A model generated the notes under the pieces. The model was not told the DNA's origin, made no database searches, and saw only the letters and a list, made by a program, of their open reading frames with translations. Below are positions 2,017 through 35,034 of a stretch of DNA of 53,522 nt, piece by piece. How positions within the stretch are numbered: position 1 is the stretch's first letter; every line of letters starts with the position of its first letter. The stretch is from Candidatus Merdibacter merdigallinarum (lineage in GTDB: Bacteria; Bacillota_I; Bacilli_A; Erysipelotrichales; Erysipelotrichaceae): the NCBI GenBank assembly GCA_019118705.1, contig DWYK01000172.1, positions 1 through 53,522 of the forward strand, written 5' to 3'. Both the position numbers and the translations under genes were made by a program.

Positions 2017-2547
2017 TCATGTCCGCCGGAGGTGGGCCAGGCGTCTGCCGGCGCAGATGGCGAGAACGATCTTAAGAAGATCAGGCATCAGAAACGGCCA
2101 TACGCAAAGCGAGAGCACCTGTGGGAAGGAAATCCAGGCACCGCCTTGCAGATACAGCAGCCAAAACCACAGGGTACCGCAGAGATAACACAGAAACAGC
2201 CCACCCAGACAGGCGCAGAAACAACGGATGGGACGATCCTGCCACCAGCGCTGTGTCAGCCAGAGAAACAGTGCGCTGAGCAGAAAGCCGAAGATGTAGC
2301 CGCCGGTCGTTGAAAACAGCACGCCAGGCCCGCCGCGAAAGCCGGAGAACACCGGAAGGCCGATCGCTCCCAACAGCAGATAAAGCAGGACGCTGATGCA
2401 GCCGGAACGGCCGCCGAGCCAGATGCAGATCAGAAAGACGGCAAACGTCTGCATGGTAAACGGGACGCTCATCGGAATGGCGATCCAGGAACAGATGGCG
2501 ATACAGGCGGCCGCCAGGGCACACTGGGTCCACTCTCTTGTCTTCAT
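2017..2547 (-). CDS. bioY: BioY, biotin-specific ECF transporter S component
   Basis: The protein has 176 residues and six hydrophobic segments, with BioY-family signatures: VPFTMQTFAVFL near residues 28-39, LLGAIGLPVFSGFRGGPGVLFSTTGGYIFGF near 58-88, and a C-terminal MPDLLKIVLA. BioY binds biotin in the membrane and normally works with the shared EcfAA'T energising module, which is not in this window. No biotin synthesis genes are adjacent, which suggests reliance on uptake. The start at 2547 has a good AGGGAGG-type site (AAAGGAGGGATTTCG). A sigma-A promoter overlapped by a palindrome lies just upstream, so a repressor is expected. Confidence 0.93.
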   Translation of the reverse strand: MKTREWTQCALAAACIAICSWIAIPMSVPFTMQTFAVFLICIWLGGRSGCISVLLYLLLGAIGLPVFSGFRGGPGVLFSTTGGYIFGFLLSALFLWLTQRWWQDRPIRCFCACLGGLFLCYLCGTLWFWLLYLQGGAWISFPQVLSLCVWPFLMPDLLKIVLAICAGRRLAHLRRT

Positions 2548-2735: not shown

Positions 2736-3332
2736 TCACAGCGTCTTGTGGCGAAGCACTGCATGGGCCGCCAGTGCGACGATCGCACCGATGATCGCCT
2801 CAGCGATCGAGTTGACACCGACGGTCGTCATCAGCAGGGCGACGATCGTATTGCCCAGGACGGCTTCATATGGCGCCTTGAAGAAGATCCAGATGCCGCC
2901 CAGCACACCGATCGTGTTGATCGCCGCACCGGACAGGCCGGCAATCAGCGCCGCTGCATTTTCGTTTCGGTGAAGCAGCTTTTCATAGATCCAGCCGCTG
3001 CCATAGCCCAGTGCGATGCGAGGCACGAAGGCGATCAGCAGGCTCGTCCAGTTTCCCTGCACGCCGCCCATGGAAAAGAAGGGCGTGAAGCAGAAGCTGG
3101 TGATCGTCGGCTGAAAGGTCGCGTTATAGAACGAGCAGAATCCCATCACGAAGCCCAGGGCCGCTCCATAGCGTTTGCCCAGTGCCATCGCGCAGATGAT
3201 GACAGGGATGTGCAGCATCGTAACGCTCAGAAAACCGACGCGTAAAAACCCCAGCGGGGTAAAGGAGAGGATGACCTCAATGGCCAGCAACATGGAAAAG
3301 AGGACCATCTTCTTTGTTTTTTTGTTTCTCAT
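2736..3332 (-). CDS. ECF transporter S component (PanT-like family)
   Basis: I set the start at the ATG at 3332 (MRNKKTKK), which has an AAAGGA site. The upstream in-frame ATGs lie inside the peptidase gene. The 198-residue product is almost wholly hydrophobic with about six membrane segments. It shows the pattern of the PF12822-type S components: FTPLGFLRVGFLSVTMLHIPVI, then GAALGFVMGFCSF and CFTPFFS. Related proteins are annotated as pantothenate (PanT) transporters, but substrate specificity cannot be read from sequence. It starts one nucleotide after the stop of the S58/P1 peptidase, so the two are translationally coupled. A scavenging role for a product of that peptidase or a related vitamin is an inference. 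Confidence 0.8.
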   Translation of the reverse strand: MRNKKTKKMVLFSMLLAIEVILSFTPLGFLRVGFLSVTMLHIPVIICAMALGKRYGAALGFVMGFCSFYNATFQPTITSFCFTPFFSMGGVQGNWTSLLIAFVPRIALGYGSGWIYEKLLHRNENAAALIAGLSGAAINTIGVLGGIWIFFKAPYEAVLGNTIVALLMTTVGVNSIAEAIIGAIVALAAHAVLRHKTL

Positions 3333-3333
3333 A

Positions 3334-4320
3334 TCAGGATTCCTTTCTACTGTCGTTCGCATGGATACGACGTATGGAGGCAGCGCTTGGCAGACCGTAA
3401 GCGGCCTCTGCGGCAAGAACTGCGCGGTTGATGGCTTTTCCCATGACATGAACGGCAAGGGCACCGACGACATCCGGCATCGCGTCCACTTCGTTGACCG
3501 CCAGCGTAAAGATCGTATCGCCGTCGCTCATCGTATGGACCGGAAAGATCGCATCGGCATAACCGTTGTGAGCGATGCTGGCGATCTTGGCACACTGGCT
3601 CTTGTTGAGCCTTGCGTTGGTGATGATGCAGCCGATCGTCGTGTTGCCCATCGGCAGCGTATCGTGTGCCTGCATCTGTTCCATCAGCGATAATGGATCC
3701 AGGATGCGGCCGTCCTTGCAGACGCCGGCGAGATACTCGCGCGTTTCGACATCACGGACGTTGCCGCAGGCGTTGACGGCGACCACAGCGCAAACCTGCA
3801 GATCGCCGACCTGCACGCCAGCCATGCCCTGTCCGGATTTCATCGCATAGGGCGCATCGAGCAGCTTGCCGACGCTGGCGCCGGTACCGGCACCGTAATT
3901 GCCGTCGCAAAACAGGTTGTGTTCGCTGGCCTTGCAGGCCGCATAGCCCATGGCCGCATCCGGCCGGATCTTGCCGTTGCCGACGCACAGGTCAAACAGG
4001 GAGGCACCGCAGACGATCGGGACGTGTTGATCGGCGATCGCAAAGCCGCAGCCATGCTCTTCCAGATAGCGCATGACACCGCCTGCCGCATCCAGGCCGA
4101 AGGCGCTGCCGCCGGAAAGGATCACACCGTGGATCTGCTGGACCATGTTTTTCGGATGCAGCAGATCGGTCTCTCTGGTTGCCGGTCCGCCGCCGCGGAC
4201 ATCGACACCGGCACTCATTCCTTCCTTGCAGAGGATGACCGTACAGCCGGTCGCGTTTGCTTCATCCTGTGCCTGTCCGATCTGGATCCCTTTGATCTGT
4301 GAAGCCGTGATCTCTTTCAT
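3334..4320 (-). CDS. P1 family (S58, DmpA/NylC-like) peptidase
   Basis: The 328-residue start at 4320 follows AAAGGAGGAAACGAAG. The protein matches the DmpA/BapA/NylC N-terminal-nucleophile superfamily. It has GGGPATRETDLL near residue 43, SGGSAFGLDAAGGVMRYLEE near 70-90, GAGTGASVG mid-protein, and the self-cleavage region LPMGNTTIGCIITNA near 235. The Thr after Asn in that last motif is expected to become the new N-terminal nucleophile after autoproteolysis. Family members act as beta-aminopeptidases or cyclic-amide hydrolases in the cytoplasm. The coupled S component downstream hints at uptake or recycling of a beta-alanine-type amide such as a pantothenate derivative; this is inference only. 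The 5' leader holds a terminator-switch RNA. Confidence 0.88.
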   Translation of the reverse strand: MKEITASQIKGIQIGQAQDEANATGCTVILCKEGMSAGVDVRGGGPATRETDLLHPKNMVQQIHGVILSGGSAFGLDAAGGVMRYLEEHGCGFAIADQHVPIVCGASLFDLCVGNGKIRPDAAMGYAACKASEHNLFCDGNYGAGTGASVGKLLDAPYAMKSGQGMAGVQVGDLQVCAVVAVNACGNVRDVETREYLAGVCKDGRILDPLSLMEQMQAHDTLPMGNTTIGCIITNARLNKSQCAKIASIAHNGYADAIFPVHTMSDGDTIFTLAVNEVDAMPDVVGALAVHVMGKAINRAVLAAEAAYGLPSAASIRRIHANDSRKES

Positions 4321-4344: not shown

Positions 4345-4498
4345 CAATAAAAAAGCTGCCGAAGCAGCACAGAAAAACATCCGTCAAGTGACGAAAAGGG
4401 TACGATCTTCAAGTGCCGTTTCTGATGAATACGGCCTTGGGGGATGTTCGATCTTCTGTGCAGCTTCCAAAAACAGGAATACCACCACGACCATGATA
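4345..4498 (-). promoter_or_regulatory. Candidate transcription-attenuating leader RNA (unassigned riboswitch-like)
   Basis: A -10-like TATCAT (4493-4498) precedes a leader of about 165 nt. Just before the ribosome binding site is a terminator hairpin GCTGC-TTCG-GCAGC followed by TTTTTTATT (4346-4368). The segment GAAGCUGCACAGAA (4467-4454) pairs in 13 of 14 positions with UUCUGUGCUGCUUC (4374-4361), which contains the 5' half of that terminator. The two structures are therefore mutually exclusive. Inside this long closing stem lie a second helix ACAUCC/GGAUGU (4447-4442 with 4382-4377) and a hairpin arm CAAGGCCGU/ACGGCACUUG. This is the layout of a riboswitch aptamer, but I recognise no known class. 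Confidence 0.55.
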
Positions 4499-4577: not shown

Positions 4578-6173
4578 ATGGAAGAGAGCGGAAAGCAGCG
4601 ATATATGACCATTCGGGTACTGAGCAGGGATGGGATGGCAGAAGTGGAACTGGTCCGGGATGCGCAGACCGGGCGTTATGGTGTGCGCAAGCGGGCGAAA
4701 TCGACCGCGGCGGCACTGGATGCGCTCGCGCGGGAGGCACGACTGCTGGCACAGCTGTGTCATCCTCAGATCCCACGGTTGGTGGAATATCGGCCTGCGG
4801 AGCGCTGTCTGATCATGGAATACATGCCGGGGGAAACGTTGGAACAGCGATTTTTACGAGAGGGTCCCTTTGCGCCGGAGCAGATCATCACCTGGGGCAT
4901 CGACCTGTGTGAACTGCTTGCACATCTGCATGACGCTGTGCCGGCGATCATCTATCGGGATCTGAAACCGGGCAATGTCATCGTGATGGAGGATGGCCGA
5001 CTGGCGCTCATCGACCTGGGTGCGGCCCGCCGCTATCAGAAAGGAAAACAGCGGGACACCTGTCTGCTGGGGACCTGTGGCTATGCAGCGCCGGAGCTTT
5101 ATGGCGGTCTGGGACAGAGCGGTCCGCAAAGTGATGTCTATTCACTGGGAGCGATGCTCTATCAGCTCTGGGATCGGACACGGCCACATTCCGCACTCGC
5201 CGGGGTGCTGCGTCATGCGACGGGCTATGGGCCATCCGATCGTTATCCGAACTGTGCGCAGATGAAGGAGGCGCTGATGCAGGCGCGAGGTGTGAAAAAT
5301 AGGAGCGCATCCCTCTTTTTGCGTGTCGCTGTCCTGTTTGGCTGTGTGATCCTCTCGCTGGGGATGCTGTGCGTGCGATATGAAGAAGGTCTGCGGTATG
5401 CGCAGCTGCTGGCTGCATCCCGAAAGGAGAGAGGAGAAGCGCGTTGGGCGCTCTGCGTGCAGGCGATCCAGATCCGTCCGCAGGCGAAGGACGCCTATCT
5501 GTGTCTGTTGCAGGCGTTTGCGGAAGATGGCTGTTTTGATGAGCAGGAAGAACGTTTCTGGAAACAGGAGGTCGCTTTGGAGCTGGAGGCGCTGAAACAA
5601 AGCGATGGCTATGCGGCGGTCGCCTATGCGATGGGGGAGCTCTACTGGTATGGCTATGGTCAGAATGACGGACAGCTGCAGATCGCACCGGAAGCGATGA
5701 AAGCGTCGATTCCCTGGTTTCAGGATGTGCTGCAGCACGCAAAGGAAACGACACCGGCGTATCAGAATGCGATGATCTATCAGGCGATCGGCTGTTTTTA
5801 CCGTGATATCGTCTTATCGATGCGGATGTCAGATGAAGCAGGCCGCTTTCGTGCCTGCTGGGAAGCGCTGTGCGCCCTGCGGCAGGCCATCGAGATGCGG
5901 CCGTTGGCAGATGTGTGGATGCGCCTGCAGCTGGATCAGCTGATGATCGATTTTGTCATGGGCTATCTCTGGGAACTGCGAACGGACGGGGTGACGAAGG
6001 GAGAGGTCGTGACGGTCCTCGCAGAGGGCTATGAGCGGATCCACGCACTGTCCGCACGGAGCGAACAGGAACGGGCGCTGAAAGCACGCCTGCTGGAACA
6101 GGAGGAGATGGTGTGGAAGACGGTGGAAAGTACGTATGCAGAGGAAATGGAACAGGAAGTGAGAGGAGGATGA
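4578..6173 (+). CDS. Transmembrane Ser/Thr protein kinase with extracytoplasmic helical domain
   Basis: This 531-residue protein has a Hanks-type kinase domain at residues 10-235: alpha-C Glu in REARLLAQL, catalytic loop YRDLKPGNVIV (Asp128, Lys130, Asn133), metal-binding DLG (146-148, instead of DFG) and CGYAAPE (168-173). The glycine loop is degenerate (LSRDGMAEV) and the ATP lysine is uncertain (VRKRAK), so activity needs testing. One membrane segment (about 246-267) is followed by a 260-residue helix-rich, TPR-like part predicted outside the cell in place of PASTA repeats. The next gene, an Ig-repeat surface protein, starts 3 nt downstream, suggesting a sensor pair. It is divergent from the P1 peptidase operon. 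Confidence 0.82.
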   Translation: MEESGKQRYMTIRVLSRDGMAEVELVRDAQTGRYGVRKRAKSTAAALDALAREARLLAQLCHPQIPRLVEYRPAERCLIMEYMPGETLEQRFLREGPFAPEQIITWGIDLCELLAHLHDAVPAIIYRDLKPGNVIVMEDGRLALIDLGAARRYQKGKQRDTCLLGTCGYAAPELYGGLGQSGPQSDVYSLGAMLYQLWDRTRPHSALAGVLRHATGYGPSDRYPNCAQMKEALMQARGVKNRSASLFLRVAVLFGCVILSLGMLCVRYEEGLRYAQLLAASRKERGEARWALCVQAIQIRPQAKDAYLCLLQAFAEDGCFDEQEERFWKQEVALELEALKQSDGYAAVAYAMGELYWYGYGQNDGQLQIAPEAMKASIPWFQDVLQHAKETTPAYQNAMIYQAIGCFYRDIVLSMRMSDEAGRFRACWEALCALRQAIEMRPLADVWMRLQLDQLMIDFVMGYLWELRTDGVTKGEVVTVLAEGYERIHALSARSEQERALKARLLEQEEMVWKTVESTYAEEMEQEVRGG

Positions 6174-25740: not shown

Positions 25741-25754
25741 AAAGGTGCATAAAA

Positions 25755-25867
25755 TAAAACTTCGGGGCAGAGTGAAATTCTCGACTGGCGGTAAACTCCG
25801 CGAACCTACGGGTGGAACCGGTGCAACTCCGGTAGCAACAGTGAAAGTCTGGATGGAAGAAGTTTTT
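25755..25867 (+). ncRNA. FMN riboswitch (RFN element)
   Basis: The conserved RFN blocks are all present: CTTCGGGGCAGAGTGAAAT, CGACTGGCGGTAAACTCCGCGA, ACCGGTGCAACTCCGGTAGC and GTCTGGATGGAAGAAG. P1 is closed by AAAACTTC against the GAAGAAGTTTT end. It binds FMN and should switch off the downstream riboflavin transporter when flavin is plentiful. Confidence 0.96.
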
Positions 25868-25918
25868 GTCGTTGATCACGGGCATCCTTTTTTGATCTGC
25901 CCTTGCGTCATCGTGCTC

Positions 25919-34817: not shown

Positions 34818-35034
34818 AATAAGAGTTTAGAGGCAGCAATGTATCAGAGTACCAGCGGGAGCCGGCAGGCGATGAACGGTGGGAAAGGTAACCATTGCCG
34901 AAGGAGAAATGTCGGCGGACATCATCCTGGGGCTGCAGGGAATACTTGCAGCACTCCTTCATAAGCATTTATGAAGAGGCGCTATTAGAGGACCAGATCA
35001 GATCAGGAGTCGTGCTAATAGCATGGCTCTTATT
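34818..35034 (+). ncRNA. Lysine riboswitch (L box)
   Basis: Conserved L-box blocks are readable: TTTAGAGGCAGC at the 5' junction, GTGGGAAAGGTAACCAT, GCCGAAGGAGAAAT, CTGGGGCTGCAGGGAATACTTGCAGC, and the final TTCATAAGCATTTATGAAGAGG arm. AATAAGAG (34818-34825) pairs with CTCTTATT (35027-35034). A second stem GCTATTAG/CTAATAGC (34981-34988 with 35014-35021) lies just before the latter and probably forms the terminator side of the switch. It should repress the downstream transporter at high lysine. Confidence 0.88.

Follow-up and report, generated by a model that had tools for sequence, protein, structure and literature searches.

The window analysed here is the whole 53,522-nucleotide stretch of contig DWYK01000172.1 from Candidatus Merdibacter merdigallinarum. 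On its minus strand lie, one behind the other, a gene for an S58 (P1) peptidase, an N-terminal-nucleophile hydrolase of the DmpA/ThnT/NylC type (3337..4320; Pfam PF03576, E 5e-33), and panT, the gene for an ECF transporter S-component (2739..3332; PF12822). Both stand behind an RNA leader that is the subject of this work. A serine/threonine protein kinase-like gene (4578-6173, plus strand) runs divergently from the peptidase leader, and the two share their upstream region. A gene for BioY, the biotin ECF S-component (2017-2547, minus strand), follows about 190 nt downstream of panT, with which it possibly forms a vitamin-uptake cluster; an orphan 127-residue IS3-type transposase helix-turn-helix protein is encoded at 1597-1980 on the plus strand. 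Rfam places two riboswitches elsewhere in the window, both on the plus strand: a lysine riboswitch (34820-34992, 69.9 bits) and an FMN riboswitch (25754-25868, 104.8 bits), which would be the second vitamin-responsive leader of the window.

Among the PDB matches of the peptidase are a NylC-type enzyme and ThnT, a nylonase type and a thienamycin-pathway enzyme of the same family S58. The alignment to both covers most of the window protein, and the Asn-Thr nucleophile is preserved in its NTT motif. Its segment VDVRGGGPxTRETD is nearly that of ThnT, although its best PDB score is to the NylC-type enzyme. ThnT itself acts on pantetheine only when this is attached to a carbapenem (PMC6097109). From its operon with panT and its similarity to ThnT alone, the peptidase is suggested to be a candidate pantetheine or pantothenoyl-amide hydrolase, which would give an S58 peptidase a function in vitamin B5 metabolism. 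For the ECF S-component there was no NCBIfam match above cut-off, and its sole credible PDB matches are 4rfs_S (E 1.7e-11) and 6zg3_C (E 6.6e-6), both of which are structures of PanT (PMC7755397). The homology to these only solved relatives is distant; the protein is most likely PanT, a predicted pantothenate transporter. An S58 gene is found directly or closely upstream of panT in seven genomes from five genera.

The same genomes say something about where the vitamin comes from. In searches with positive controls, panB and panC were absent from the window genome, whose assembly is 86% complete, and from three relatives that carry the leader, two of which are 97-99% complete; coaBC is present in all four. 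Across the family, panB was above cut-off in none of the 195 genomes. The host gut bacteria thus probably live by pantothenate uptake, with probable recycling, and without a synthesis of their own.

Read along the minus strand, which carries all leader features given here, the region contains an extended -10 element, a first hairpin (HP1), a second hairpin (HP2), the downstream strand of the closing stem at 4374-4361, a terminator, a ribosome site and the peptidase start codon at 4320. The -10 element, TGCTATCAT (4501-4493), was read from the sequence, and is followed directly by HP1, at whose base, near 4486, transcription is expected to start. The promoter scan found no sigma-70 hexamer pair meeting its consensus; sequence comparison places a -10-like stretch of similar kind at the same position in the leaders of the relatives L003-L005. 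HP1, UG-GUGGU-A-UUCC(7 nt)GGAA-GCUGC-A-CA (4457..4487), has a geometry common to the four leaders. It is weak in the window, with three G.U pairs, and goes unscored there by the covariance model R1 described below; its counterpart in L005 is matched by R1 with an E of 0.036. HP2, AAG-GCCGU-A-UUC(4 nt)GAA-ACGGC-A-CUU (4411..4438), is matched by R1 at 30.8 bits (E 1.1e-6, with the whole 53-kb window searched).

Downstream of the hairpins, the UUCG-capped terminator with six U that the initial annotation had noticed ahead of the peptidase gene is indeed there: GCUGC-UUCG-GCAGC-UUUUUU (4349..4368), with the hairpin at 4368-4355 and the U run at 4354-4349. It is seen in the sequence as well as in the terminator scan, where it is one of 3 terminator-like sites against 0.5 expected, and it is kept in L003-L005. 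The distance to the ribosome site had been put at 25 nt; from the U run to the site AAAGGAGG (4336-4329) we measure about 12 nt. The long stem also proved correct: 4467-4454 pairs with 4374-4361 in 13 of 14 positions, with a single U.U mismatch, and its 3' strand overlaps the 5' arm of the terminator. The first half of its 5' strand is at the same time the 3' strand of HP1. The further helices reported for this region are present too, but what they are had been missed, namely two similar pan-type hairpins, one inside the stem and one 5' of it. The leader as a whole folds better than 200 of 200 shuffled sequences (z -3.26).

Some 65 genomes of the family have an S58 gene, and the leader precedes it in four of them: the window genome, two congeners, one of which is Merdibacter massiliensis, and one genome from another genus. 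Since no such element was found upstream of the roughly 60 other S58 genes, the S58 peptidase alone is not the conserved target. When the four leaders are compared directly, pair by pair, HP1 and HP2 follow a single plan in all of them, in which the stem runs from a few outer pairs past a bulged A in the 3' strand to five middle pairs, and then past a second bulged A, this time in the 5' strand, to inner pairs that start from a U-A. The closing stem is kept in the three relatives only as a core, GCACAG/CUGUGC, with a run of A/U; only in the window leader, among the four, does the overlap with the arm of the terminator extend to 13 bp. Because only four genomes are known, three of them from one genus, covariation in the peptidase leader is thin. 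Covariation had been proposed as the check on the 4454-4467 / 4361-4374 pairing, for which there is hardly any in four mostly invariant leaders; for hairpins of the kind found before panT it is strong.

One such hairpin lies at the junction of the two genes. This third pan hairpin, UAC-GUCGU-A-UCCAUGCGA-ACGAC-A-GUA (3348..3374; R1 30.6 bits, E 1.3e-6), spans the end of the peptidase gene and abuts the panT ribosome site AAAGGA at 3346-3341. In the window it sits inside translated sequence, so that ribosomes finishing the peptidase would open the hairpin and may in this way couple panT to the gene before it. The peptidase stop codon of L003, like that of L004, falls within the hairpin loop; the L004 hairpin has one mismatch, and L005 has no hairpin at this junction.

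To see how general this arrangement is, one can look at panT itself. In most of the 90 panT upstream regions that were collected, a pan hairpin stands immediately before the ribosome site, and in many of them the 3' outer strand of the hairpin (A-GGA) is part of that site. A strict version of the hairpin occurs in 42 of the 90, against 0.57 expected from shuffles, and in none of the regions upstream of 58 leaderless S58 genes; a strict second hairpin lies 5' of the first in 23 of 62 panT leaders (0.56 expected). Model R1 is a covariance model of 57 panT hairpins, none of which comes from the genus of the window. In this alignment 88.7% of the cells are paired, nine of the 11 pairs have changes on both sides, and there are 88 double-change cells compared with 31 after shuffling; the pairing collapses on sliding by a single column. 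The pattern by which the training hairpins were chosen demands most of the pairs as well as the bulged A residues, and more weight therefore lies with the shuffle and slide controls than with the raw pairing percentage.

Run over the whole window, R1 returned exactly two significant matches, HP2 and the junction hairpin (3374-3348), with the next best at E 0.15. Over the 195 family genomes there were 84 matches at E up to 1e-3, and 80 of these lie at most 200 nt upstream of panT; the other four are two panT starts at contig ends, the window leader, and one apparent chance match. Beyond this family, elsewhere in the order and class, R1 picks out panT-coaBC operons and, twice, coaBC-coaX, and the computed placement before panT or CoA-pathway genes is near-exclusive. 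At one locus (L231, G001:C42) a strong pan hairpin is followed by a remote ECF S-component that shares 31% identity with PanT and may have a second substrate or be a fast-evolving PanT.

The initial annotation had assigned the leader to no RNA class. That holds for Rfam, where no covariance model matched the leader at gathering thresholds and none credibly at E up to 10; it does not hold for the geometry, which is that of the pan motif (RF01749). The pantothenate link that had been suspected is thereby upheld from two sides, by an ECF S-component closest to PanT and by an RNA of pan geometry. The Rfam pan cut-off of 36.2 bits is not reached: there is no match in the window, and the relatives score between 23.4 bits, for the L003 junction hairpin, and 32 bits, for a site that immediately precedes panT-coaBC in a genome of another genus. 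The Rfam pan model gave no match at E 1 on the order and class leaders found by R1, and no over-cut-off member in a search over the class and phylum, with a positive control in B. subtilis. Weak pan matches in the family at L073, L074 and L076-L081 were treated as chance, because no recognisable pantothenate gene lies downstream of them in the ORF listing. The leader also bears no likeness by eye to antiterminator sites of the RAT/LicT type, and has no Rfam match to them. Judged by its hairpins, the peptidase leader is a divergent pan-type RNA element with tandem hairpins, too divergent for the Rfam model to call. We do not file it as a formal member of RF01749, since it stays below the cut-off and outside the panBCD context.

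How such a leader might work is suggested by its folds. Constrained folding of the four leaders gave two states within about 5 kcal/mol of each other. One has HP1 and the full terminator; in the other, an extended antiterminator takes the 3' strand of HP1 together with the 5' arm of the terminator. By small margins, the window leader and L005 prefer the antiterminator, and L003 and L004 prefer HP1 with the terminator. With two states in competition, occupancy of HP1 would favour termination. It is on this point that the initial annotation has to be amended: a cis-regulatory RNA with a terminator and an antiterminator was rightly seen, but the closing stem does not belong to the aptamer itself. 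It borrows the 3' strand of HP1, and hairpin occupancy should therefore switch the gene off, not on.

We consider it likely that the leader, as a divergent pan-type element, puts a vitamin B5 salvage operon made of the S58 hydrolase and PanT under feedback control. When pantothenate or a downstream product such as CoA is plentiful, the pan hairpins would be occupied, either by a protein or by a metabolite. An occupied HP1 would keep its own 3' strand, no antiterminator would form, and the terminator would end transcription ahead of the peptidase gene. Under scarcity of the vitamin, HP1 would open and its 3' strand would pair with 4374-4361, taking up the 5' arm of the terminator and allowing the operon to be transcribed. 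The panT hairpin, by covering the ribosome site, would add a translational control. In the polarity that we infer here, both outputs go off upon occupancy, as is expected for feedback on uptake. A similar switching logic may be at work in the coaBC-coaX leaders (L237 and L249, near 1501-1570), where a pan hairpin is followed by an intrinsic terminator whose 5' arm GCCAUUUC could pair almost throughout with the pan 3' strand GAAAUGAC, at seven of eight positions on L249.

What the hairpins respond to is a separate matter. It is conceivable that the structure is there by chance and that the leader is an ordinary attenuator or terminator, as its presence in only four genomes could be taken to mean; the z-score of -3.26, the R1 E-values of 1e-6 and the conservation of bulges and stems in all four leaders make this the most improbable of the readings. 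Hardly more probable is an unrelated new riboswitch class whose likeness to pan is a coincidence. Such a class would fit the absence of any score from the Rfam pan model in the window, but R1, trained on panT leaders from other genera, selects just two sites in 53 kb, HP2 and the junction hairpin, and the downstream gene and the geometry are the same.

The weightier choice is between a protein and a metabolite. MS2 coat protein binds a hairpin with a bulged A, and by analogy a dimeric RNA-binding regulator that senses pantothenate or CoA could bind the tandem bulged-A hairpins, with the RNA itself being no sensor. We moderately favour this reading because the hairpins are small and tandem, with a variable loop and conserved bulged A residues; it was also the proposal of those who discovered pan (PMC2864571). 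Against it stands the window operon, which encodes no regulator, and no regulator gene has been identified. A protein-binding antiterminator had been named at the outset as a finding that would speak against a riboswitch here, and the protein proposed for pan itself comes close to that. The other reading, in which the hairpin pair is a riboswitch for pantothenate or CoA, seems to us unlikely, though far from negligible. It would suit a regulon that comprises uptake, salvage and CoA synthesis but neither panB nor panC, and expression platforms at a terminator and a ribosome site are typical of riboswitches; a 28-nt hairpin with a variable loop, however, offers little pocket, and up to 2022 there was no validated riboswitch for CoA, which reviews name as conspicuously missing from the riboswitch ligands (PMC9971707, PMC10043782). 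We put forward as a doubtful proposal that pantothenate, a phosphorylated intermediate or CoA binds to the pan hairpins directly, with HP1/antiterminator/terminator and ribosome-site masking as the two outputs; a regulator protein remains our preferred occupant.

Whichever occupant is right, the panT leaders have a bearing on pan RNA as such, an orphan since 2010 with no more than a proposed kind of sensor. The synthesis-gene contexts (panBCD) had allowed for pathway intermediates as the signal, among them pantoate, ketopantoate and beta-alanine. In bacteria without panB, a large pan regulon for uptake, CoA synthesis and probably amide salvage speaks instead for pantothenate or something downstream of it, and pantoate and ketopantoate are unlikely signals where panB and panC are absent. 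What the genes of the known and the new pan contexts have in common is pantothenate and the later intermediates, which would leave CoA or pantothenate. The short panT leaders, which would act on translation, make simple constructs for the protein-versus-metabolite question, and if their hairpins did bind a metabolite, they would be the RNA sensor that the CoA pathway has long lacked.

Termination and ribosome-site masking are also the means by which the THF, FMN, TPP and lysine riboswitches regulate genes for vitamins or amino acids. In the Rfam search none of these four had a match at the leader. The closest known system is the pan motif, which Weinberg et al. described in 2010 as a mostly tandem stem carrying two conserved bulged A residues and suggested to be a dimeric protein-binding motif (PMC2864571). 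It was placed upstream of panB, panC or panD, in organisms that make the vitamin, whereas the elements described here precede the genes for PanT, the S58 hydrolase, coaBC and coaX; in panT leaders, moreover, one hairpin is usually at the ribosome site, and the scores remain below the Rfam cut-off. In the open-access literature that was searched, pan contexts were panBCD only; an earlier mention of a panT link in subscription papers is possible. The likenesses are nonetheless close. HP1, HP2 and the junction hairpin all have the two bulged A residues, one on each strand and 5 bp apart; the Rfam pan model has the geometry of the window hairpins, with three outer, five middle and two to three inner pairs and an A bulge on each side; and the tandem arrangement, the U-A and C-G pairs adjoining the 5' bulge and the location in the 5' UTRs of pantothenate genes are shared as well. 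The leader thus appears to be pan-like in its geometry and in its working, in a panT and salvage context that is apparently new next to the published panBCD ones.
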